From the NCBI GenBank assembly GCA_030429045.1, contig JAUIEA010000027.1, positions 1-33,768 on the forward strand: a stretch of DNA of 33,768 bases. The letters run 5' to 3'. The notes below the pieces were generated by a model. That model searched no databases and was not told the DNA's origin. It saw nothing but the letters and a program-made list of their open reading frames with translations. Position 1 is the stretch's first letter. The number at the start of each line of letters is the position of its first letter. The stretch comes from Bacteroidia bacterium (GTDB lineage Bacteria; Bacteroidota; Bacteroidia; Chitinophagales; Saprospiraceae). Both the position numbers and the translations under genes were made by a program. This document shows, piece after piece, positions 10,840 to 33,039 of this stretch.

Positions 10840-12531
10840 ATGGAAAAGAAATTCAAAATTCTGATTTTTGCAACTTTACTAGTTAGCAGTGTCTTAAATG
10901 CCCAAAATTTTGAATGGGTTAATCAAATGGGAGGGCCTACCTATGATACAGGGACCTCAATAACTGTAGATGCTTCAGGAAACATCTATACCACTGGTCA
11001 ATTTCAGGGCACTATAGATTTTGATCCAGGAGCAGGCACTAGCATATTAACTTCGAGTGGACAAAGCGATATTTTTGTCCAGAAATTAGATAGTAGTGGA
11101 AATTTTATTTGGGCAAAACAAATGGGTGGTGCATATAATGATTATGGTCACTCTTTAGTTGTCGATAATGATGGAAATGTCATTACTACGGGATTCTTCA
11201 ATGGCACAGTTGATTTTGATCCGGGAACAGGCACAAGCAATTTGACTTCAGCAGGCTTTGTTGATGTTTTCGTTCAGAAGTTGGATGCCAACGGTTCTTT
11301 TCTCTGGGCGAAGAGAATTGGAGGTCCTTCTAATGTAAATTCGAAGTCAATAGCATTAGATGATTCAGGAAATATTTATATCGCAGGTAGTTTTGAAGGC
11401 ACAGTTGATTTTGATCCAGGTGGGGGGGTGAAAAATTTAGCATCTGCTGGTGGTTATGACATTTTCGTTCAGAAGTTGAGCGCCAATGGTAGTTTTATTT
11501 GGGTAAAAAGAATGGGGAGTGATTTAGATGATCGAGGTCAAGCTTTGAAGGTGGATGCTTCCGGGAATGTCTGTACAGTTGGAACTTTTAGCGGTACAGT
11601 TGATTTTGATCCAGGTTCTGGATCAAATGTATATACTGCAATCGAGCGTGATGTATTTATCCAGAAAATGGATGATGAGGGTAACTTTCTATGGGCCAGG
11701 CAAATTGGGGGCCTTTCTCATGACTTTGCATACTCAGTTGCGGTTGATGCTTTCGAGAATGTCTATACAATTGGCCGATTCAAGTTGACTGTTGATTTTG
11801 ATCCTGGGATTGATACTTTCTATTTAGCTTCATTTGGTAACAGTTATGATATTTTTGTTCATAAAATGGATGTAAATGGTGATTTTATTTGGGCCAGGCA
11901 AATAGGTGGAATTGCTTCCGATGATGGGCAGTCAATTGGATTGGATGCTGCTGGAAATGTTTATTCCACTGGGGTTTTCTATGGTACTGCGGATTTTGAT
12001 CCCGGTGCAGATAAGTATAACATGGCTTCGGCTGGTAAGTATGATATTTTTGTTCAAAAGATGGATGCGGATGGTAACTTTCAATGGGCTAGACAAATAG
12101 GTGGTTCAGATAATGAATTCGCCTTCTCAATCGCTGTTGATGCTAGCGAAAATGTTTATACTACTGGCAATTTTACGGGTACGGTAGATTTTGATCCTGG
12201 AATTGGAACAAATTACTTGATTTCGGCTGGTGGTCAGGATATTTTTCTCCAAAAGCTTAGTAGTGTAACAGTTGCAATCAATGATAGTGAATTTGCTAGC
12301 ATACTCAATTTATATCCAAATCCTACCTCCGGGGAGTTTTTCATTTATTTGGATTCAATATACTCAAGTGTTCTAGTTATGATATTCGACATCAATGGCG
12401 ATTTGGTTCGATCTGAGTCTTTTAATGAGGGAGGTCTCATTCGGATGTCAATAGTAGAGCCTGAAGGCGTATACCTCATTGTAGTTGAGACGGATTCAAG
12501 AAGGTCAGTTATGCGATTACTCATGAATTGA
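10840..12531 (+). CDS. Secreted seven-repeat beta-propeller (SBBP-like) protein with T9SS type A tail
   Basis: The 563 residues begin with a signal peptide (MEKKFKILIFATLLVSSVLNAQ). Residues 24 to about 480 are seven tandem repeats of about 65 residues. Each runs F-x-W-(A/V)-K/R-Q-(M/I)-G, then D-x-x-G-N-(V/I)-Y-T-G, then GT-VDFDPG, then D-(I/V)-F-V-Q-K-(M/L). The VDFDPG Asp-rich turn could bind calcium. Seven repeats fit one closed seven-bladed propeller. Residues 490-563 are a type A sorting domain (LYPNPTSGEFFIYL ... GVYLIVVE). The gene is clearly AT-richer than its neighbours and lies next to a degenerate tract, consistent with acquisition. It is probably a cell-surface or released binding protein; the ligand is unknown. 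Confidence 0.85.
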   Translation: MEKKFKILIFATLLVSSVLNAQNFEWVNQMGGPTYDTGTSITVDASGNIYTTGQFQGTIDFDPGAGTSILTSSGQSDIFVQKLDSSGNFIWAKQMGGAYNDYGHSLVVDNDGNVITTGFFNGTVDFDPGTGTSNLTSAGFVDVFVQKLDANGSFLWAKRIGGPSNVNSKSIALDDSGNIYIAGSFEGTVDFDPGGGVKNLASAGGYDIFVQKLSANGSFIWVKRMGSDLDDRGQALKVDASGNVCTVGTFSGTVDFDPGSGSNVYTAIERDVFIQKMDDEGNFLWARQIGGLSHDFAYSVAVDAFENVYTIGRFKLTVDFDPGIDTFYLASFGNSYDIFVHKMDVNGDFIWARQIGGIASDDGQSIGLDAAGNVYSTGVFYGTADFDPGADKYNMASAGKYDIFVQKMDADGNFQWARQIGGSDNEFAFSIAVDASENVYTTGNFTGTVDFDPGIGTNYLISAGGQDIFLQKLSSVTVAINDSEFASILNLYPNPTSGEFFIYLDSIYSSVLVMIFDINGDLVRSESFNEGGLIRMSIVEPEGVYLIVVETDSRRSVMRLLMN

Positions 12532-12945: not shown

Positions 12946-14676
12946 ATGAACGGCGGCCAACTTATCGCTGAACGACTCTCACGTCATGGCGTTCGTCATC
13001 TCTATACCCTGAGTGGTGGGCATGTTGCCCCGATCTATGTAGAAGCGGAAAAAGAAGGGATCCAAATTGTGGATGTACGTCATGAGGCCACTGCTGTGTT
13101 TGCTGCAGATGCAGAAGCCCGGCTTTCCGGTATTCCGGGAGTCGCCGTGGTTACTGCCGGACCCGGCGTGACCAATACGATTACGGCCTTGAAGAATGCC
13201 CAGTTGGCCCAGTCTCCAGTCATCCTGTTTGGCGGAGCGACAGCTACATTGCTCCGCAATAGGGGAGCCTTGCAGGATATCGATCAGATCAGCATTATCA
13301 AGTCTGTGGTCAAAACCTGGATCCAGGCCAGGCGGGTCAAAGACCTGGTTCCCGCAGTGGAAAAAGCCTTCCAGGTGGCTACTTCAGGGGTGCCTGGTCC
13401 GGTGTTCATTGAGTGCCCGGTGGATCTGCTCTATCCTGAAGCCACAGTCCGCGAATGGTATGGTGCCAAGAATGAACCGGGGAAGTCCCTGGCTGCCCGG
13501 CTGACCTATTGGTATATCAATCGTCACGTCAATCGACTTTTTGCCGGCGTAAAACCAGAGGTTTCACTTCTGCCTCAGCCGCAGCGAACAGCATCTGTTC
13601 GAAGTTCAGATGTTCGCTCCTGTTTGAAGGAGCTTGCCCATGCAAAGCGCCCCATGATGGTGATCGGAAGTGGGGCCATGAATCAGCCGCAGCTGGCTCA
13701 CGAGCTGGCAACAGCAGTTGAGCAGATCGGAATTCCTGTCTGGTTGAGTGGCATGGCGCGCGGATTAGTTGGCAAGGGACATCACCTGCACAATCTTCAT
13801 CACCGGAAAAAAGCACTTCGGGAAGCTGACCTGATCCTCCTGGCGGGGGTAGCTGCCGATTTCCGGTTGGACTACGGCCGCCATCTGGGTCGAAAAGCAC
13901 GGATCATCGCCGTACACCGGAGCGCAACGGATCTGAAACAAAACATGCCAGGGAGAAGCCTGCGCATTTACGGGGATCCGGCTTCCTTCCTCATTCAGGT
14001 GGGGAAGGGCGTGTCGAACAGCCCGGACTATCCAGAATGGACTGCCTTGTTGGGTACCTGGCAGGATGATCGGGAAACCGCCATTGCCAATATGGCCACG
14101 GAAGCCATGGACGGCATCAATCCGGTGGCCCTTTTTCAGTCCCTGGAGGAAATGCTTCCGGAGAATGCGATCCTGGTTGCAGACGGCGGTGATTTTGCCG
14201 CCACGGCTTCCTATACCCTGAAGCCCCGCAAATTACTCCATTGGCTGGACCCTGGTGTCTATGGCACACTGGGGGTCGGTGGGGGATTTGCCCTCGGAGC
14301 TGCCCTTCATGATCGAAGGGAGGAAGTATGGATCATCTACGGGGATGGAAGTGCCGCTTACAGCCTGGCGGAGTTTGACATTTTTGCCAAACACGGACTG
14401 AAGGTTTGTGCCATTATTGGCAACAATGCCAGTTGGGAGCAGATCGCCCGTGACCAGACCACCATGCTCGGAGCCCCTACTGCAGTTGAATTGCGGCATT
14501 CCGATTACCATCTCATCGGAGAGGCCTTTGGTGCCATAGGCGAACGAGTGGAGGATCTGGATCAGTTTCGTCAGGCTGTGCAAAGGGCCCGTCAGCACAT
14601 GGAGAAGGGGACGCCCTGTATCATCAATGCCATCATCGGAAAATCTGACTTTCGAAAAGGGAGTATCTCTATGTGA
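12946..14676 (+). CDS. ThDP-dependent 2-hydroxyacyl-CoA lyase-like protein (ILVBL/HACL2 family)
   Basis: The product is 576 residues from ATG 12946; the in-frame TTG at 12934 is not needed. It has the full acetolactate-synthase architecture. The N-terminal pyrimidine-binding domain carries the cofactor-activating Glu47 ([12 protein letters not shown]). A central domain contains [14 protein letters not shown] and [10 protein letters not shown]. The C-terminal domain carries the ThDP/Mg motif GDG466-468 ... NN493-494. [20 protein letters not shown], the WY-x-RH-x-x-RLFAG segment and the ending DFRKGSI are particular to the ILVBL/HACL2 branch, which in animals cleaves 2-hydroxyacyl-CoA into formyl-CoA and a shortened aldehyde. 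It therefore need not make acetolactate, and no ilvN-type small subunit follows. The CoA-transferase gene lies 25 bases downstream. Confidence 0.85.
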
Positions 14677-14701
14677 CCCTCTTTTTATGACCTGATCGTC
14701 T

Positions 14702-16363
14702 ATGGGCATTCTGGAAAAAATCGGACTCATTCTGCATATTCTCCGCTGGCGATTCAGCTGGGGGAAAAGGGATCTGAATTTTCATCCCGGATCGGGGGTG
14801 TCTTCGGTATTTGTCACTGCCCGGGAGGCGGTGGCCCGGATCCGATCCGGGCAAACCGTCTTCTCCTGCGGGTTTGCTGGTACGGCCCGATGCTCGGTAT
14901 TCTTCTGGGCCATTCGGGACCGCTATAAAAGGGAAGGTGCACCCGGAAACCTGACCTGGATCAATGTCGCGGCCCAGGGGGGGCGGGGCAAGGTCCCGGG
15001 AACCGTGGAGGAGCTGAATCTCCCGGGATTGATGACCACCTACATCGCCGGTCATGTCGAGACCACTCGTGCCCAGTTGCAAATGGCCGAAGCAGGCCGG
15101 TTGGACTTGCATACCCTTCCGCAAGGTGTCATGACCTATCTCCTGGAGGCTCAGTCCAGAGGGGAAACAGAGGTCCGCTCTGCTGTTGGACTGGGTACCA
15201 TGCTGGATCCGCGAATCGGATCAGGGAGTCCGGTTCTGTCGGACAGTCCCCTGCAATTGGTGCGGGTAGAGGGAGAGGAACTGGTGTATACCATGCCGAA
15301 GATCGATATTGCCCTGATCAATGCGCCTTATGCCGACGCAGACGGGAATATCTATTTTCATCATGCTGCTTCCATTAACGAAAATCGTGAAGCAGCAGCG
15401 GCTTCCCGGGCAAACGGGGGGCAGGTACTGGTCACCGTTTCCAGGATCATCCCCAGAGATGATGACCGGATTTCAATGATCCGGGAAGAGGTAGACCAGA
15501 TCGTGGTCCACCCTTACAACGAGCAATCTGCCGGTATTCGCCAATTGCGTTTTTGGCCATCACTGACTCCCTTCGGGCAGGTCGATCCGATCCGTGAAAT
15601 GCGGCGGACCCGGTATATCAACACCTTCCTGAAGATCACTCCGGTTCGCAATACGGTCGATGATCAGTTGTGCAGCATGGCCGCTGATCTCATCCTCCGT
15701 GTCGTGCCGAAAGGGGCGATGACAAATATCGGGGTAGGTTATCCCGAACACGTGGTCTGGCACCTCCTTCGACAGGGAAAGGGGGATCATCTCAAGTTTA
15801 CCACTGAGGCCGGCTCCCTGGGCGGGATCCCCCAGCCGGGCATCTTTTTTGGTTCGGCCATCATGCCCGACAAATTGATCTCCTCATTGGAAATGTTCCA
15901 GCTGTATGAGGCCCGATTAGGACTGGCCATCCTGGGGTATGTGCAGGTGGATGAAAAGGGGAATGTCAATGCCAGTCTGAAAGGCCATCGTATCCAGGAT
16001 ACCGTCGGTCCCGGTGGATTTATGGATATCATCTATGGGGCAAAGGTGGTGGTCTTTGTCGGGAGCTGGCATGCGCATGCCACCTATGCCATGCAGGAAG
16101 ACAGGATAACCCTGGTCAAACCCGGGAAACCCAAATTTGTCCGACAGGTGGATCAGATCACCTTCTCTGCCCGGGAGGCATTGCGATTGGGAAAGACCGT
16201 CTATTATGTGACACATGTCGGTATCTTCCGCCTCACATCGGCAGGATTGGTGTTGGACAAAACCGCTCCGGGTGTTGATGTGCAACAGGATATTCTCCGG
16301 ATGTGTTCTGCGAAGATCTATGTTCCCGATGGCAGTGAGGGAGAGGATATGCAACCTGAATAG
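14702..16363 (+). CDS. Class I CoA-transferase (acetate/propionate CoA-transferase-like)
   Basis: The 553-residue protein contains both halves of a family I CoA-transferase in one chain. The alpha-like half has a glycine-rich GFAGTARCSVFFW region in place of the usual GGF motif. The beta-like half has TEAGSLGGIP, in which Glu369 is in the position of the catalytic glutamate that forms the acyl and CoA thioester intermediates. The later GPGGFMD and VKPGKPKFV stretches also fit. It resembles fused propionate CoA-transferases more than two-subunit enzymes. It follows the lyase gene by 25 bases on the same strand, so the two are probably one operon. The CoA acceptor is probably a carboxylic acid used by the lyase, possibly a 2-hydroxy acid (inference). 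Enzyme fold: sure; substrate: unknown. Confidence 0.85.
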   Translation: MGILEKIGLILHILRWRFSWGKRDLNFHPGSGVSSVFVTAREAVARIRSGQTVFSCGFAGTARCSVFFWAIRDRYKREGAPGNLTWINVAAQGGRGKVPGTVEELNLPGLMTTYIAGHVETTRAQLQMAEAGRLDLHTLPQGVMTYLLEAQSRGETEVRSAVGLGTMLDPRIGSGSPVLSDSPLQLVRVEGEELVYTMPKIDIALINAPYADADGNIYFHHAASINENREAAAASRANGGQVLVTVSRIIPRDDDRISMIREEVDQIVVHPYNEQSAGIRQLRFWPSLTPFGQVDPIREMRRTRYINTFLKITPVRNTVDDQLCSMAADLILRVVPKGAMTNIGVGYPEHVVWHLLRQGKGDHLKFTTEAGSLGGIPQPGIFFGSAIMPDKLISSLEMFQLYEARLGLAILGYVQVDEKGNVNASLKGHRIQDTVGPGGFMDIIYGAKVVVFVGSWHAHATYAMQEDRITLVKPGKPKFVRQVDQITFSAREALRLGKTVYYVTHVGIFRLTSAGLVLDKTAPGVDVQQDILRMCSAKIYVPDGSEGEDMQPE

Positions 16364-16721: not shown

Positions 16722-18941
16722 TCACCGGATGACCTGCACCTCGCCACTGTGGACCTGGGTTTCCCCCCAATAATCGACATACTGAAGTGACCAGACATAG
16801 GTGCCCGGATCCAGCGGATCGCCATTTCGTGAACCATCCCATTCCACTCCATCATCATCGGTCTCGAAAACCAGGTTGCCCCAGCGATCATACACCTGAA
16901 GCAGCATGCTTTCCAATCCACGGGACGTAAGGAGTCGGAAACCATCATTAAACCCATCAAAGTTGGGGCTGAACGCGGTGGGTGCATAAATGCGGTATAC
17001 CGGTTCGATCTCGACATAACGGACGATACTGTCATAACATCCTGCCGCATTGGACACTTCGAGGATGACCGGATAGATGCCGATATCGGGAAAGGAAAAA
17101 CTGATGGAGGGTGTATTGGCGGTGTAAACTCCGGGAATGGTCCAGGTGTAGAACTCCCCATATTGGGATTCATCCTGAAACAGCATCAGCGGATTGTCTT
17201 CGTTGACCCGGCCCGTCGGACTAAAGCTGAAATCGGCTTGCACGGGGAATCGTGTCAGGATCAGGTCATCTAATTGCAGGGACGCCTGACAGTCGAGGGG
17301 TGAAGTGATGGTCAGTTCGACATCCCAGGTGCCTGCATCGGTGTAGGTGTGGCTCGGGATGGTGCCGGTACCTGTGCTGCCATCCCCAAACGTCCAGTCC
17401 AGCTGATAATCCGGAGTCAGTGGTGTCGAGGTATTGACAAATTGGGCAATCACCGGGAGGCAACCCATATCCGGATCGTGGGCAAAGGAGATCGGGTCGG
17501 GCAGAGGAAACCAGTCCAGGAGCTGGGTGATGGTCCGTTCGCAGCCGAAGGTATCCCTGGCCGTGAAGGAAGGAGCATAGACCCCGAGGTTGGCATATGC
17601 GTGTTGGGAGATGGCACCGGTTCCGGTCATGCCATCCTTGTAATTCCAGGTGATCCCCGTCAATGCAGCGGGGTCTCGATTGACCGTGGCAGTGAACGTA
17701 AATGGATCCCACAGACAAGAATCGCCTGTGATGGTCATGCTGCCTTCCAATTCGGGGGTGACCAGGATTTCGATGGTCGTCGTGTCTGTGCAGGACAGGC
17801 CGGGATTGGCCACCAGTTTACCCGTGTACAATCCGGGTTGAGGGAAGGTCATTTGCAGGGTATCTGCGGTCTGGATGACTGCCGGGACTAATGAGCCAGT
17901 GTCGACCAACCAGGAGATATCGGCGATCTTGTTCACCGGTGTGCTCTTGTTGATCAGCGTCAGTATCGATTTACCACAAACCAGTGCTTTTCCACCATAC
18001 AGGATATCACTGGGAATTTCGATCTCTGCGTTGATGGCCTGCACGCAGGCTACCACGTTGAACTGGAAGTCCCGCTGGGTGATGGACAGGAGTTCGCCAT
18101 TGCGATATTCGGCCACACAAACACCGACGACATATTGCCCCTGGATAGTTGGAAAGCCGAAGATCTCTCCGGTGACCGGGTCCAGGGTGACTTGCGGATT
18201 TCCACCGATCGGATTGTCCTGGGAGAATGGAAACAGGAACGTGACCCCGTCGTAAGGCGGCTTGGATTCCGGATTGGGTGCGACATTGTTCTTGGAGCCG
18301 CCAAATAGAGGTGTGCAAAAGGAGTAGACGAGAGAATCGCCGTCCTGATCGGTGGCGCTGTGGTCAAAACGAAGGGTGTCGTTGACGCAAATGGCGATGG
18401 GCGGAAAATCCTGAAACGTCGGACTGCTGTTGCATTCCTGCTGAGCCAGTGGTGTGATCTCTACGGCATAGGTGGCACCGACATCACCGGGTGTGACGAT
18501 GTTGGAGATGGTACCATTCCGGCAACAGCGCTGATAGGCGATGAAGTAACTCTTGTCGCTGGGGATCAGGTTGACGATAAAGGTGTAAAGACCTTCTTCC
18601 ACACAGACATTGGGCGGGGCCGTCAGGCAGGGATTGGTGACCACGGGGTCGATCTTGGTGATTTCAGGTGCACCGATATTCGGTGTGCCCATTTGCTGGG
18701 CGGAAGGTCCGGATCCCAGGAAAATGGTGACACGAGCAGATTGGGAGCCCGGGGAACCGTCAAATCCAGCCTGTCCCGCATAACAATCCCGGTATACGCG
18801 CATGGTGATGCGGTACTGATTGTTGCCCAGACACTCGTAGGTCATTTCCCCGCCCACAATATGTGTGGCCTGCAACGGAGCCGGCATGAGGAGCAGTAAA
18901 CCTGAGACAAGGGTCAGGAATATGGAGATTGACTTCATCAT
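16722..18941 (-). CDS. Exported PKD-domain protein with gliding-type CHU_C (T9SS type B) C-terminus
   Basis: The 739 residues start with a signal peptide (MKSISIFLTLVSGLLLLMPAPLQA; the first of two adjacent ATGs is used). The N-terminal 300 residues begin THIVGGEMTYECLGNNQYRI and contain YRDCYAG, YFIAYQRCCRN and DQDGDSLVYSFC. This is a cysteine-rich module common at the start of gliding-associated proteins. About residues 385-640 hold three or four PKD-like repeats (FGDGSTGTG...HTYTDAGTWDVELTI and related). The end, from TAFSPNFDGFNDGF through YDRWGNLVFE to VQVIR, is the CHU_C domain recognised by T9SS for type B sorting. It is likely a large surface protein involved in adhesion or gliding; a direct role in motility is inference. 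Confidence 0.88.
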   Translation of the reverse strand: MMKSISIFLTLVSGLLLLMPAPLQATHIVGGEMTYECLGNNQYRITMRVYRDCYAGQAGFDGSPGSQSARVTIFLGSGPSAQQMGTPNIGAPEITKIDPVVTNPCLTAPPNVCVEEGLYTFIVNLIPSDKSYFIAYQRCCRNGTISNIVTPGDVGATYAVEITPLAQQECNSSPTFQDFPPIAICVNDTLRFDHSATDQDGDSLVYSFCTPLFGGSKNNVAPNPESKPPYDGVTFLFPFSQDNPIGGNPQVTLDPVTGEIFGFPTIQGQYVVGVCVAEYRNGELLSITQRDFQFNVVACVQAINAEIEIPSDILYGGKALVCGKSILTLINKSTPVNKIADISWLVDTGSLVPAVIQTADTLQMTFPQPGLYTGKLVANPGLSCTDTTTIEILVTPELEGSMTITGDSCLWDPFTFTATVNRDPAALTGITWNYKDGMTGTGAISQHAYANLGVYAPSFTARDTFGCERTITQLLDWFPLPDPISFAHDPDMGCLPVIAQFVNTSTPLTPDYQLDWTFGDGSTGTGTIPSHTYTDAGTWDVELTITSPLDCQASLQLDDLILTRFPVQADFSFSPTGRVNEDNPLMLFQDESQYGEFYTWTIPGVYTANTPSISFSFPDIGIYPVILEVSNAAGCYDSIVRYVEIEPVYRIYAPTAFSPNFDGFNDGFRLLTSRGLESMLLQVYDRWGNLVFETDDDGVEWDGSRNGDPLDPGTYVWSLQYVDYWGETQVHSGEVQVIR

Positions 18942-20500: not shown

Positions 20501-21334
20501 TCATGCAGGGTTTTTCTGGACCAGCTGGTCCGGATTCCGGATCGCGCGTTTCAGATAGCGAAACAGTTTGCCTCCCTGCTGGGCATCTACGACGCGGTGG
20601 TCGAGGGTGGCCGACAGGTTGAGCAGGCGCCGGGGGACGATCTGTCCGTCGACCACCGCAGGTTTGGTTTGCACCCTCCCCATGACCAGGACCAGGGGGA
20701 CATTGGACACCGGCAGGAGGGCGGGATACCCGACATCCAGTCCGATGCTGCCAATGTTGGAGAAGATCAGGGATCCGAAGGAATCGGGTCCTGCAGGCAT
20801 GAAGGGGATACGCAAGCCCCATTCAACGATGACCTTCCGCCAGGCCCTGATCAGCCAGTTCCGAAATGGCCAGGGGGTTTTGGCCAGCCAGTTCTTCTGT
20901 TTTGCAGCGGCACCATGATCAGCGGTTCGATGGGCCTGGAGGTTCTCGGACATCCATTCTGCCATCTGTTGGATGGTGAGGGTATCTGCCCGGGGCAGAC
21001 GCAGGGAGGTCATTTCCCTGCCCCGGTTCATCAGGACACTGATGACAATATCCACGGTCTCGCGATGGACAAGATGGCCACGACGGACATAACAGTTCAA
21101 CTCGGGCACCTCCGTTTTTAGTGCTCGGGCCGTCATGAGGATCAGGGGGAACATGAGGGTGATCTTGAGACCTTCTTCCCGCTTTTGAAGCACCCATTGT
21201 TCCAGGTCGGTGACATCCAGTTCGACACTGCCGAAAATGCGTGCATCGACCGGTTTGCGATAGATGGCGGTAGAGACCAGTCGCCAGGGGGTGTTGGGAT
21301 CAAAGGTGGACATGGGTGGATCGGATCTGATCAT
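20501..21334 (-). CDS. Stand-alone E2-type (2-oxoacid dehydrogenase) acyltransferase domain protein
   Basis: This 277-residue protein has the chloramphenicol-acetyltransferase-like catalytic domain of E2 subunits but no lipoyl or E1/E3-binding domain. Visible family features are FPLILMTARALKTEVPELNCY, SVLMNRGREM, GSLIFSNIGSIGLDVGYPALLP and LSATLDHRVVDAQQGGKLFRYL. In classical E2 enzymes the active site reads DHRxxDG; here the His and Asp remain but Gly is Ala. Lacking a swinging arm, it probably transfers acyl groups from CoA to another acceptor, or binds rather than catalyses (inference). The first ATG (21334) is used; ATG 21313 (MSTFDPNTPW) is equally likely. No dehydrogenase genes are nearby. 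Confidence 0.82.
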   Translation of the reverse strand: MIRSDPPMSTFDPNTPWRLVSTAIYRKPVDARIFGSVELDVTDLEQWVLQKREEGLKITLMFPLILMTARALKTEVPELNCYVRRGHLVHRETVDIVISVLMNRGREMTSLRLPRADTLTIQQMAEWMSENLQAHRTADHGAAAKQKNWLAKTPWPFRNWLIRAWRKVIVEWGLRIPFMPAGPDSFGSLIFSNIGSIGLDVGYPALLPVSNVPLVLVMGRVQTKPAVVDGQIVPRRLLNLSATLDHRVVDAQQGGKLFRYLKRAIRNPDQLVQKNPA

Positions 21335-27483: not shown

Positions 27484-27491
27484 TACCTTTG
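27484..27491 (+). promoter_or_regulatory. -7 promoter element of the desaturase gene
   Basis: TACCTTTG is an exact TAnnTTTG match ending 21 bases before the ATG at 27513. A well-spaced -33 TTG is not seen. The rest of 27252-27483 contains no gene. Confidence 0.45.
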
Positions 27492-27512
27492 CGGCTTCTA
27501 TTATCATTAAGT

Positions 27513-28649
27513 ATGACCTTTATTCCTCCCAAGTATAACAAGCACTCGCTGGCGACGTTCTATCCGACGTTGCGCAGTCGGGTGAATGCCTATTTTACGG
27601 AGAACAATATTTCCCGGAATGCCAACGCTGCCATGGTGGCCAAAACGGTCATTCTCCTGCTGGTCTATCTGGTTCCGCTGGCCCTGCTTTACTTCGGTGG
27701 CATCTCCTCCAGGTGGATGGTCTTCGGGCTGTGGGTGATCATGGGCTTCGGGATGGCCGGGATCGGCATGGCCGTGATGCATGATGCCAATCACGGCGCC
27801 TATTCCAAGAGCACCCGGGTCAACAACCTGATCGGATACCTGCTCAACATGGTCGGCGGGAACGCTGATTTCTGGAAGATCCAACACAACGTCCTGCACC
27901 ACACCTACACCAATGTCGATGGTGCCGATGAAGATATTGACACCCCTTCTTTCCTGCGTTTTTCGCCGCATGTCGAGCGGAAGTGGATCCACCGCTACCA
28001 GCATTGGTATGCGCTGTTCTTCTACGGATTCCTGACCATTCCATGGATCACCAGCAAGGAATTGCAACAGTTGAATGACTACAGGAAGAAGGGATTGATA
28101 CCCGGAGGGAAACCATTCCGGAACCTTTTGATCCGTTCCATCGTATGGAAGATTGGGTACTACACGTATTTGCTCGTGTTACCCATGTTGCTCACACCTG
28201 TTTCCCCGTGGTTTACCCTGATCTGCTTTCTGACCATGCATTATATTGCCAGCTTCCTGCTGGGCATGATCTTTCAGACAGCTCATGTGATGCCTTCCCT
28301 GGACTTTCCAAAACCGGACGAAACCGGCAACCTGGAAAACAACTGGGCAGTTCATCAGCTGTATACCACAACCAATTACGCCCCCAAGAGCCGGTTCTTT
28401 GCCTGGTTCGTCGGAGGATTGAACTTTCAGGTCGAACACCACCTGTTTCCCAATATTTGCCATGTCCACTACAAGCGGATCTCGGCAATCGTCAAGGAAA
28501 CAGCCCGGGAATTCGGTCTGCCTTATCACTCACAGAAAAATTTCCTGGACGCTGTTCGAGGACATCTTCACATTCTGAAGACTCTCGGCCGTCAGGATCA
28601 TTTGCCGGTTCCTGCAACTCTTCCGAGGGAAGAAATGCACACCGTTTAA
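27513..28649 (+). CDS. Membrane fatty acid (acyl-CoA/acyl-lipid) desaturase
   Basis: The product is 378 residues from ATG 27513, close after the -7 motif; an in-frame TTG at 27489 lies over that motif and is excluded. Four or more membrane helices carry the three histidine boxes of front-end desaturases: H90-D-A-N-H94, H125-N-V-L-H129-H130 and Q306-V-E-H309-H310. These ligate the di-iron centre. The Gln in the third box is typical of delta-5/delta-6-type enzymes, but no cytochrome b5 domain is fused, so a separate ferredoxin or cytochrome donor is needed. It introduces a double bond into membrane fatty acyl chains, relevant to membrane fluidity. The position of the double bond cannot be told. 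It is monocistronic, with a 180-base non-coding gap after it. Confidence 0.9.
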   Translation: MTFIPPKYNKHSLATFYPTLRSRVNAYFTENNISRNANAAMVAKTVILLLVYLVPLALLYFGGISSRWMVFGLWVIMGFGMAGIGMAVMHDANHGAYSKSTRVNNLIGYLLNMVGGNADFWKIQHNVLHHTYTNVDGADEDIDTPSFLRFSPHVERKWIHRYQHWYALFFYGFLTIPWITSKELQQLNDYRKKGLIPGGKPFRNLLIRSIVWKIGYYTYLLVLPMLLTPVSPWFTLICFLTMHYIASFLLGMIFQTAHVMPSLDFPKPDETGNLENNWAVHQLYTTTNYAPKSRFFAWFVGGLNFQVEHHLFPNICHVHYKRISAIVKETAREFGLPYHSQKNFLDAVRGHLHILKTLGRQDHLPVPATLPREEMHTV

Positions 28650-30981: not shown

Positions 30982-31001
30982 TCCTGCGGAGCAACCAGGA
31001 T
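30971..31001. terminator. Hairpin spanning two convergent stop codons
   Basis: ATCCTGGTTG (30971-30980) pairs perfectly with CAACCAGGAT (30992-31001) with an 11-base loop. The left arm overlaps the end of the DUF1801 gene and the right arm touches the stop of the dismutase gene. No T-run follows on either side, so it may stop or protect transcripts less strongly than a classic terminator. Confidence 0.5.
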
Positions 31002-31708
31002 CAGCCAAAGAGTGCGTTGACCTGATCCCAGTTGACGACCTTCCAGAACGCACCGATATAGTCTGCACGCTTGTTCTGATAATGGAGATAATACGCGTGT
31101 TCCCAGACATCCAGGCCCAGAATTGGTGTTCCGGGCTTTGCAGCAATCTTCGACATCATCGGATTATCCTGGTTGGGTGTCGAGGTGATGAACAGGTTGC
31201 CCGATTGGTCCTTGCACAGCCAGGCCCAACCGGAGCCAAATACGCCCTTGGCCGCATTTGCAAACTCGGCCTGGAAGGCTTCCATCGTGCCCCAGCGTTG
31301 GTTGATCGCCTGGAGTAGCCGATCATTGGGTGTTGTTTGGATCGGGGAGAGCCACTTCCAGAACATGCTATGGTTCCAGTGCCCACCGCCATTGTTTCGC
31401 AGGGCCGTATCACCTTCTTTGATGGAACCGAGCAATTGCTCGAGGCGCATGGATTGCAGGGCAGGAGCGCCCTCAAGGGCATTGTTCAGCTTATTGACAT
31501 AACCGTTATGATGGCGGTCATGGTGGATCTCCATGGTTTTTGCATCGATGTGCGGCTCCAGATCGGCGAAGCCGTATGACAATGGCGGGAGGGTAAACGG
31601 GTATTGACCCAAAGCGCCTGCCCCGGCGGCCTTTTTCAGTGGTGAACACCCTGCCATTGTGCCCGCAGCTACGATTCCGGTCAATTTGAGAAAGGTTCTT
31701 TTTTCCAT
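31001..31708 (-). CDS. Exported Fe/Mn superoxide dismutase
   Basis: The product is 235 residues from ATG 31708. The N-terminus MEKRTFLKLTGIVAAGTMAGC is an export signal: KRTFLK resembles the Tat motif with Lys in place of the first Arg, and AGC at residues 19-21 may be a lipobox, although the preceding residue is Met. The mature part is a complete dismutase with metal ligands His62 (EIHHDRHH), the His of NHSMFW, and Asp and His of LGLDVWEHAYY. GGGHWNHSMFW and SGWAWL fit the Mn/Fe class. Most relatives are cytoplasmic, so this one probably protects the periplasm or cell surface from superoxide. Tat export would let it fold with metal first (inference). Confidence 0.92.
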   Translation of the reverse strand: MEKRTFLKLTGIVAAGTMAGCSPLKKAAGAGALGQYPFTLPPLSYGFADLEPHIDAKTMEIHHDRHHNGYVNKLNNALEGAPALQSMRLEQLLGSIKEGDTALRNNGGGHWNHSMFWKWLSPIQTTPNDRLLQAINQRWGTMEAFQAEFANAAKGVFGSGWAWLCKDQSGNLFITSTPNQDNPMMSKIAAKPGTPILGLDVWEHAYYLHYQNKRADYIGAFWKVVNWDQVNALFG

Positions 31709-31722
31709 GGAAGTGCTTTGTT

Positions 31723-31730
31723 CAAATGTA
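31723..31730 (-). promoter_or_regulatory. -7 promoter element of the superoxide dismutase gene
   Basis: On the minus strand this reads TACATTTG, an exact TAnnTTTG match ending 14 bases before the ATG at 31708. A TTTG lies upstream after only 16 bases, a little short for the usual -33 spacing. Confidence 0.45.
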
Positions 31731-31821
31731 CGACAAATGAGTGGGGCAAATGGTTGAGTATCCCCGGGTGCAATTTCGGGATCCCTTTTCTGGTACGGCT
31801 TGAAATGCAGATCTTCGGCAG

Positions 31822-33039
31822 ATGAATCCAATCCTGATCTTGCTGACCATATTGACCGGTAGCTTCTTTTCGAGCCCTGCTTGCCCACCAAATGCGATCG
31901 TCTCAGAACAACTCACCTCAGGTTCGGGGTATTTCACTGAGATTCCGGTGACTTATGTTCGTGATAAGATCCTCATCCAGGTGGAGATCGGTGGAAAAGC
32001 CCGCACGTTTCTTCTGGATACCGGAGCGCCCTTTATGGTGGATGAAGCCCTGGCCCGGGAGATGGGCTATCGGGAGGTCGGATCAAAAGGGTTGAAGGAT
32101 GCCTCTGGGAATCGAACTCGTGTCCAGAAGGTAAAAGTGCCTGAATTGTTTCTCGGCAGTACCCGATTTTCGAACCTTCCTGCTTTGGTGTATGATTTCA
32201 GGAGCAGCCTGCTGGGGTGTTTCCAGATCGACGGGATCATTGGCAGCAATATCCTGAAAAAGAGTGTTCTGCAGTTCGATCTCGCGGAGGGCGTGATCCG
32301 CTTGACGAACAAGTCTGATAAACTGGATGTCGCGGGATCAGATGCGATTTCCATTCGGTTGAAACCCAAACAGTTCAACCCGATGGTACCGGTTCGGATC
32401 AATGGTGAGATCCTGATATGGAGTCTTCTGGATACCGGGTCGGATGATTTCTACAGCATCAGTAAGGAACACCTGGCCGCTATTCAAAAGAAAGGGCAAT
32501 TGACCGAACCGGCACTTTCAAGAACGGAAGGAAGTGCATCACTGGGCCTGATGGGTGGAAATGAAAGTGCATTTGAGATCCTGGTCGGACTGGAGTCCCT
32601 GGCCTTTCAGGATCAGCCGATCACGGGTCAGGTGGCGATTGAATCCAACCACGATAATGACTCACGGATCGGGATGCGCTTGCTGGAACGGGGTGTTCTG
32701 ACCCTGGACTATCGGAAAAAGCGGATCTGGTTCAAACCCTATCCGGACCATGAGGATTATCGGTACATCCAGTTTGGTTTGGGCTTCGTCCCTGAAGGAG
32801 ATTCCTGGGTCATCCGTGAGGTATGGTCCGGTTCGGACGCCGAACGCGAAGGGCTGGTCAGGGGAGATACCCTCCTGGAATACGGGGACCTGACCTTTTC
32901 CGGGATGTCCGTCTGTGACGTCATGTTCCAACTGCCTGCCGAACGAGACAAATCCTCGATACGGATCAAGGTCAGGCATGTGGATGGCCGGGGCGACCGG
33001 ACCTATTTTCTCCGTCAGGTGACATTTTTCGGGGATTGA
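31822..33039 (+). CDS. Secreted aspartic (retropepsin-like) protease with C-terminal PDZ domain
   Basis: The 405-residue protein has a signal peptide (MNPILILLTILTGSFFSSPA). Two active-site motifs are seen in one chain, LLDTGAPF at Asp66 and LLDTGSDD at Asp204, each followed by the hydrophobic-hydrophobic-Gly pattern (IDGIIGSNIL; SRIGMRLL). Retropepsin-like proteins need two such motifs to form one active site, so a single chain can be active alone. From about residue 315 a PDZ domain follows (FGLGFVPEGDSWVIREVWSGSDAEREGLVRGDTLLEYGD), with GLVRGD as the typical turn. It should cut peptides or proteins outside the inner membrane, with PDZ guiding substrate choice. Its last 25 bases overlap the convergent glycosyltransferase gene. 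Confidence 0.85.
   Translation: MNPILILLTILTGSFFSSPACPPNAIVSEQLTSGSGYFTEIPVTYVRDKILIQVEIGGKARTFLLDTGAPFMVDEALAREMGYREVGSKGLKDASGNRTRVQKVKVPELFLGSTRFSNLPALVYDFRSSLLGCFQIDGIIGSNILKKSVLQFDLAEGVIRLTNKSDKLDVAGSDAISIRLKPKQFNPMVPVRINGEILIWSLLDTGSDDFYSISKEHLAAIQKKGQLTEPALSRTEGSASLGLMGGNESAFEILVGLESLAFQDQPITGQVAIESNHDNDSRIGMRLLERGVLTLDYRKKRIWFKPYPDHEDYRYIQFGLGFVPEGDSWVIREVWSGSDAEREGLVRGDTLLEYGDLTFSGMSVCDVMFQLPAERDKSSIRIKVRHVDGRGDRTYFLRQVTFFGD

Follow-up and report, generated by a model that had tools for sequence, protein, structure and literature searches.

The stretch of DNA analysed here (the window; 33,768 nucleotides, contig JAUIEA010000027.1 of GenBank assembly GCA_030429045.1, from a Bacteroidia bacterium of the family Saprospiraceae) encodes a predicted thiamine diphosphate (ThDP)-dependent 2-hydroxyacyl-CoA lyase of the HACL2 type, and a predicted class I coenzyme A (CoA)-transferase gene that starts 25 bases past the lyase stop codon on the same strand. 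We propose, with a probability of roughly 55%, that this gene pair is a CoA-recycling module that removes a single carbon from 2-hydroxy acids. Family membership of both proteins, their catalytic positions, the adjacency and co-occurrence of the two genes, and the exchange of the transferase for other partners were all observed in silico.

We infer the substrate, its chain length, the CoA donor (formyl-CoA), and the direction in the cell as follows. The lyase would split a 2-hydroxyacyl-CoA, probably of medium or long chain, to give formyl-CoA and the aldehyde with one carbon fewer. The transferase, via a glutamyl-CoA thioester on Glu369, would then use formyl-CoA to load the next 2-hydroxy acid with CoA, releasing formate. 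The net reaction would be 2-hydroxy acid to aldehyde and formate, with CoA acting catalytically and no ATP spent. Chemical precedent comes from the AbfT CoA-transferase, which moves CoA from glycolyl-CoA to formate (PMC8411744).

One-carbon chemistry is the reason why HACL-type enzymes are under study, and a natural, ATP-free lyase/transferase pair would match a cycle that has been engineered by hand. If the proposal is true, it would also provide bacterial models for human HACL2, which is reported with both lyase and pyruvate-derived activities. In a search of the open-access literature, we recognised no report of such a lyase/CoA-transferase pair or of its exchange for a synthetase and a hydrolase.

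Family of the lyase

The lyase is a bacterial member of the HACL2/ILVBL clade, judging from its residues and its place in a tree. It carries all three TPP_enzyme domains (E 1.2e-35, 9.5e-26, and 2.7e-18), and its closest PDB sequence is AcHACL, the actinobacterial 2-hydroxyisobutyryl-CoA lyase. We aligned 27 family rows (the window and 26 lyases from the loci described below) with five outgroup rows, namely Escherichia coli IlvI, E. coli Oxc, two plasmid-borne relatives, and AcHACL. The AcHACL residues G43, H44, E65, T88, L127, and Q128, whose roles are given in PMC8760513 and PMC13327070, are conserved in all 27 family rows, and the Gln at Q128 corresponds to Q161 of HACL2, published in the same papers along with I554 and E557. 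Where AcHACL has E493, 25 family rows carry Ile and two carry Val (I500 in the window); this Ile is not exclusive to the clade, as the outgroup row Strep_H1 has it too. Three residues further on, Asp or Glu is found in 27/27 rows (D503 in the window). Every family row, and none of the five outgroup rows, has an extra segment that separates the first domain from the middle one. The spacing from Gln to Ile is 388 to 393 residues in the family (390 in the window) and 393 in HACL2 by the published numbers, versus 360 to 367 in the outgroups. The tail after the Ile position has 76 residues in the window lyase and 78 in HACL2, if HACL2 is 632 residues long, as we assume. The sequence-only reading had spoken of branch-specific ILVBL/HACL2 features, and the Ile, the Gln, the extra segment, the short C-terminus, and the clade bear this out.

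The human HACL2 sequence in the alignment and tree was a reconstruction rather than a database record; its length of 632 and its Q161, I554, and E557 agree with published numbers or with expectation. Compared with this reconstructed sequence, the window lyase is 46% identical over 584 columns, and the five outgroups are 26 to 35% identical. In a 47-row tree, the reconstructed HACL2 nests with the bacterial family rows in a 28-row clade (support 100/100, stem 1.74) that excludes acetolactate synthase (ALS), OXC, and AcHACL, and thirteen ALS-like rows lie far from it. Where exactly HACL2 belongs within the clade is uncertain, because the program flagged HACL2 and several outgroups as long branches. 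PMC8760513 mentions non-human sequences related to HACL2. The same paper argues that the short tail of HACL2 suits long chains, and by analogy the short tail is the only hint that the window lyase may take long-chain substrates.

In the structure model of the lyase (pLDDT, the predicted local distance difference test, 80.3), a helix at residues 496-508 lies at the published active-site helix and another falls within the extra segment, and low-confidence parts are found around 103-113 and 495-498. The top structural matches are HACL/HACS structures (Z 37.4, root-mean-square deviation (rmsd) 3.0, 528 aligned).

On one hand, the best NCBIfam model for the lyase is PRK05858 'acetolactate synthase' (382.7 bits, cut-off 587), ahead of the 2-hydroxyacyl-CoA lyase model NF058623 (313.7, cut-off 600), and mammalian ILVBL has been linked to dimethylglyoxal formation from pyruvate (PMC11237006), which together would make the protein an ALS or another pyruvate carboligase. 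On the other hand, none of the 25 NCBIfam models listed for the lyase reaches its own cut-off; it falls below PRK05858, TIGR00118 (237.7 vs 538.35), and the other listed ALS models. KARI_C, a domain of ketol-acid reductoisomerase, which catalyses the next step of branched-chain amino acid synthesis after ALS, has no match in the window's genome (4.27 Mb, completeness 100, contamination 1.72), while the control search was positive in 14/14 genomes. TPP_enzyme_N has one match over its cut-off in this genome, which is the lyase, and one weak match below, and a genome search with the lyase protein returned only the lyase itself at E 0.001. A genome that is 100% complete and has neither a ketol-acid reductoisomerase nor another over-cut-off TPP_enzyme_N protein makes a role in acetolactate synthesis very unlikely. 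In addition, the CoA-contact arginines R273 and R362 of AcHACL are kept (R287 and R376 in the window; Arg in 27/27 family rows), with Ala and Gln at these positions in E. coli IlvI; the lyase is far from the ALS-like group in the tree; and the genes that neighbour it handle CoA esters. The acetolactate role, which the sequence-only reading had named as the competing activity, is therefore nearly excluded by genome content and model scores. That reading had also remarked on the lack of an ALS small subunit, and indeed none is evident beside the pair, although no genome-wide search for the small-subunit family was made. Given the dimethylglyoxal report (PMC11237006), pyruvate chemistry may be a side reaction of the HACL2 clade.

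Two other identities were rejected. As an oxalyl-CoA decarboxylase, the lyase scores far below the OXC models (217 vs 557 and 195 vs 739.4 bits) and has Gln110 instead of Glu. As an AcHACL-type lyase, it has I500 rather than Glu, a 76-residue tail rather than a long lid, and falls well short of the NF058623 cut-off.

The CoA-transferase

By sequence and structure model, the 553-aa protein is a class I CoA-transferase, as had been read from the sequence, and has the YdiF/SCOT fold. It holds one Pfam family, CoA_trans PF01144 (E 9.6e-16; 58.3 bits vs a cut-off of 23), which we take to denote class I. Its closest PDB sequence is E. coli YdiF, and its model (pLDDT 91.0) matches YdiF 2ahv with Z 42.2 and rmsd 2.1 over 477 aligned residues, compared with Z of about 32 for SCOT-type enzymes. 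The Glu at the E369 position, presumably catalytic as in YdiF E333, is kept in 27/27 rows, the YdiF row included. The transferase has an N-terminal extension in which W16, R17, and W20 are invariant in 22/22 aligned rows. The idea that this conserved extension is an amphipathic membrane anchor found no support, the hydrophobic moment of the segment in the window protein ranking 59th of 535 windows. The FadX equivalog was rejected (NF052271, 182.8 vs 750 bits).

Pairing and distribution of the two genes

A pattern scan of a genome collection with the transferase alignment gave 27 transferase loci. The lyase adjoins the transferase in 12 of these, nine times upstream as in the window (Bacteroidota) and three times downstream (Gammaproteobacteria), with gaps of 6 to 238 bases in the 11 loci measured (L011 unmeasured). 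The other 15 loci divide as follows: a close lyase at another place in the genome in five (L015, L022, L026, L027, and L028); a transferase at a contig edge, in a genome whose lyase is likewise at a contig edge or near one, in two (L019 and L020); a fragment in one (L031); and no close lyase in seven (L014, L018, L021, L025, L030, L032, and L033). The lyase test covered 24 of the 27 transferase genomes (L009, L010, and L011 were excluded), and a close lyase (E 3e-171 or better) was found in 16 of them. Some absences may be gaps, because most of the 27 records are metagenome-assembled genomes.

Within the family, 199 genomes contain the lyase in 12 cases, the transferase in eight, and both in five, where 0.48 would be expected (Fisher p 1.6e-5 by genome, and 0.004 over 112 genera). 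The pairing singled out in the sequence-only reading is thus recurrent. At the level of the order, the lyase is commoner, with 40/396 genomes, mostly in two or three other families, and in a phylum sample of 395 genomes neither gene was found in the 394 other genomes at thresholds of E 1e-90 and 1e-60. The phylum, family, and order samples are not independent, because some genomes recur across them.

The neighbours of the Gammaproteobacteria loci (urocanase, DUF429, an alpha/beta hydrolase, an esterase-like protein, and a methyltransferase) offer no pathway clue. Of 664 records in a plasmid search, the 40 that were listed held relatives of 26-32% identity and none closer. On one plasmid, an AcHACL relative with Glu at the E493 position (L099:5962-7722) lies in a Methylibium acyl-CoA mutase region with a gene for an AMP-binding protein nearby.

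Exchange of the transferase for a synthetase and a hydrolase

Seven family genomes have the lyase without the transferase. Four of them carry the lyase, an isochorismatase-fold hydrolase, and a long-chain-type acyl-CoA synthetase in a row, and in the other three neither hydrolase nor synthetase was found near the lyase. The four may represent one event, because they form one branch of the lyase tree. At the order level we examined 33 of the 40 lyase loci, the other seven being the window or already covered. The hydrolase is the next gene to the lyase in 20/33, a synthetase lies at most three genes downstream in 13/33, and the transferase is found in 0/33 of these stretches. These loci are not independent either, because fourteen of the genomes come from one genus (g301). 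Of the 17 loci with a synthetase downstream of the lyase, 16 also have the hydrolase (4/4 in the family and 12/13 in the order). The hydrolase is the commonest lyase neighbour found outside the transferase-linked loci, and among the earlier loci it was seen only in the four with a synthetase. Beside the transferase-linked loci, a search at E 1e-10 among open reading frames picked by length turned up neither a hydrolase relative nor a synthetase relative (the rest of those genomes was not searched). Near an unlinked lyase in a deltaproteobacterial genome, a weak acyl-CoA synthetase relative (24% identity; L064:10621-12441) lies on the opposite strand.

This exchange of partners is our best functional evidence for the module, since the lyase would depend on a CoA-activated substrate and a single transferase could stand in for synthetase and hydrolase alike. 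In the form with a synthetase, ATP would be used to activate the 2-hydroxy acid, the lyase would cut it, and formyl-CoA would have to be cleared, perhaps by the isochorismatase-fold protein acting as a formyl-CoA hydrolase. A transferase would both clear formyl-CoA and activate the next acid, and this would explain why hydrolase and synthetase genes were not found beside a pair of the window type.

In the hydrolase, Asp28, Lys89, and Cys122 (L088 frame numbering) are invariant in 25/25 sequences, and we take them to be the catalytic triad. Among PDB sequences, MAR1 and isochorismatase-family proteins come closest to the L088 hydrolase, and MAR1 proteins are, we assume, relatives of ISOC1. One could go further and suppose that bacteria have two interchangeable HACL2 modules, one with a synthetase and a formyl-CoA-hydrolysing cysteine hydrolase of the MAR1/ISOC1 type, the other with a single ATP-free transferase; we regard this as a doubtful extension for now. 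If true, it would make the isochorismatase-fold family a specific candidate for the formyl-CoA-releasing step, and we conjecture that human ISOC1 could then be the formyl-CoA hydrolase of mammalian alpha-oxidation. ISOC1 is a peroxisomal isochorismatase-domain protein whose function was unknown as of 2013 (PMC3583843).

Evidence against the module and other readings of the pair

A number of observations speak against the CoA-recycling module. At the residue level, the acid on the active-site helix is Asp in the window and Glu in HACL2 (E557). Three outgroup rows out of five (AcHACL, Methylibium Mpe_TPP, and Oxc) likewise carry Asp there, so that the acid three residues after the Ile marks nothing by itself. 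In AcHACL, changing E493 to Asp lowers activity more than 500-fold, at a position different from Asp503 of the window (PMC13327070). The third CoA-contact arginine, R417, is replaced by Ser or Ala in 27/27 family rows, and the AcHACL Q255 position is Gly in the lyase family, both of which argue against a CoA site entirely of the AcHACL kind. In the structure comparison, OXC and glyoxylate carboligase come within 2 Z units of the best match, ALS reaches 34.2, and AcHACL reaches 33.7, no better than ALS. With no more than about 3 Z units between the best match and OXC, glyoxylate carboligase, or ALS, the fold alone does not decide the lyase family.

At the level of gene content, 8/24 transferase genomes have no close lyase, the next best match in those eight being 2e-36, and in five of the 24 the lyase is present but unlinked. 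In three Lewinellaceae without a close lyase, a short-chain dehydrogenase/reductase (SDR) gene lies directly upstream of the transferase, which indicates at least one other transferase context; PRK06181, which one of the three passes (Table 1), is only a general SDR model. At the order level, neither synthetase nor hydrolase was found near the lyase in 11/33 loci. The supply of substrate is also in question, as the window's genome has no match at E 0.001 to FA_hydroxylase (control positive in only 2/14) or to cytochrome P450 (control positive in 7/14). Endogenous 2-hydroxy acids are for this reason doubtful, with the limit that other 2-hydroxylases were not sought, and the acids would be made by another enzyme or taken up. 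The suggestion that 2-hydroxy fatty acids of sphingolipids and lipopolysaccharide are the substrates is weakened by the same searches. The sequence-only reading is thus supported in part, and its label of an alpha-oxidation module covers only the cleavage half.

Part of this evidence would also suit a different CoA donor. In such a scheme, the lyase cleaves 2-hydroxyacyl-CoA, acetyl-CoA or succinyl-CoA serves the transferase as CoA donor, and formyl-CoA is hydrolysed rather than recycled. The nearest folds after YdiF are acetate:succinate and 3-oxoacid CoA-transferases, and in the transferase genomes without a close lyase, formyl-CoA is not an obvious donor. However, a hydrolase accompanies nearly every synthetase beside the lyase, yet neither gene was found beside transferase-linked lyases, which would fit a transferase that removes formyl-CoA as well. 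We consider another donor possible and clearly less probable than formyl-CoA. Alternatively, the two genes could be neighbours by descent, with the transferase serving ordinary short-chain or 3-oxoacid metabolism; the SDR next to the transferase in Lewinellaceae could form a hydroxy-acid/oxoacid pair with it. This seems unlikely to us, in that the gene order is reversed in Gammaproteobacteria and both genes are present yet unlinked in five genomes.

Comparison with known systems

HACL2 sits in the endoplasmic reticulum membrane in mammals. Human HACL2 (ILVBL) shares with the window lyase the Gln and Ile positions, their spacing, the tail length, the extra segment, and the clade. The window lyase differs from it in lacking an N-terminal extension of about 50 residues, in its Asp at the E557 position, and in being encoded beside a CoA-transferase.

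The AcHACL-associated CoA ligase presumably uses ATP. AcHACL resembles the window lyase in the active-site residues common to both and in having its gene beside a CoA-activating gene, and in Actinomycetospora this lyase-plus-ligase cluster for 2-hydroxyisobutyrate is established (PMC7176365). It differs in its clade, its Glu at 493, its long lid, and its C4-C5 substrates (PMC8760513), and its partner is a ligase where that of the window lyase is a transferase.

The proposed logic, in which the formyl-CoA product would pay for the next substrate, is like that of Frc and Oxc, whose genes lie together in E. coli. However, Frc belongs to class III according to a title cited in PMC7176365, unlike the PF01144 transferase of the window, and Oxc has Glu at the Gln110 position and decarboxylase rather than lyase chemistry.

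E. coli YdiF is the best fold match to the window transferase and shares the Glu position, and staphylococcal FadX is alike in that the FadX model matches. The window transferase is nevertheless only 27-28% identical to YdiF, has the conserved N-terminal extension and different neighbours, and lies far under the FadX cut-off.

The engineered cycle of glycolyl-CoA synthase and AbfT (PMC8411744) likewise combines a ThDP enzyme acting on formyl-CoA with a CoA-transferase between formate and a 2-hydroxy acid. It was built by engineers and run in the synthesis direction on glycolate, and AbfT (structure 3gk7; Z 20.7, rmsd 3.7, 364 aligned) is much less similar to the window transferase than YdiF is.

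Coordinates and neighbouring genes

Table 1. Features of the gene pair in the window, and partner genes at other loci
Feature	Position	Strand	Basis or remark
HACL2-type ThDP-dependent 2-hydroxyacyl-CoA lyase, predicted	12946..14676	+	576 aa; start ATG at 12946, stop TGA
Glu47, ThDP-activating Glu (AcHACL E65)	13084..13086	+	alignment; role from PMC8760513
Gln110 (AcHACL Q128, HACL2 Q161); Glu in E. coli Oxc	13273..13275	+	alignment
Residues 182-199, predicted helix of the extra segment between first and middle domains	13489..13542	+	alignment, structure model
GDG...NN, residues 466-494, presumed ThDP/Mg-binding motif	14341..14427	+	sequence; motif assumed
Ile500 to Asp503, HACL2 I554/E557 positions on the active-site helix	14443..14454	+	alignment, model, PMC8760513 and PMC13327070
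Gap between lyase and CoA-transferase genes	14677..14701		25 bp
Class I CoA-transferase, predicted, YdiF-like fold	14702..16363	+	553 aa; PF01144
N-terminal extension of transferase, about residues 1-36	14702..14809	+	alignment; missing from E. coli YdiF and L033
Glu369, aligned with YdiF E333	15806..15808	+	alignment; catalytic role presumed
SDR genes upstream of transferase	L018:7129-8001, L021:7076-7966, L030:7072-8001		L018 copy passes the PRK06181 cut-off
Isochorismatase-fold hydrolase genes	L088:9351-9929, L089:2881-3456, L090:7122-7676, L091:9576-10133		next to lyase

By the open reading frames of the window, the large genes that flank the pair encode a repeat protein upstream and a PKD-domain protein downstream. 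The former (10840-12531, forward strand) has SBBP beta-propeller repeats and a Por secretion tail, and the latter (16722-18941, reverse strand) has a CHU_C type IX secretion signal, with similar frames downstream of the pair in two relatives. Further along the window, a 277-aa frame at 20501-21334 (reverse strand) matches the catalytic domain of 2-oxoacid dehydrogenase acyltransferases and is short for such a protein. A fatty acid desaturase gene lies at 27489-28649 (forward strand), and the frame at 31001-31891 (reverse strand) contains iron/manganese superoxide dismutase domains preceded, in the listed frame, by about 98 extra residues.

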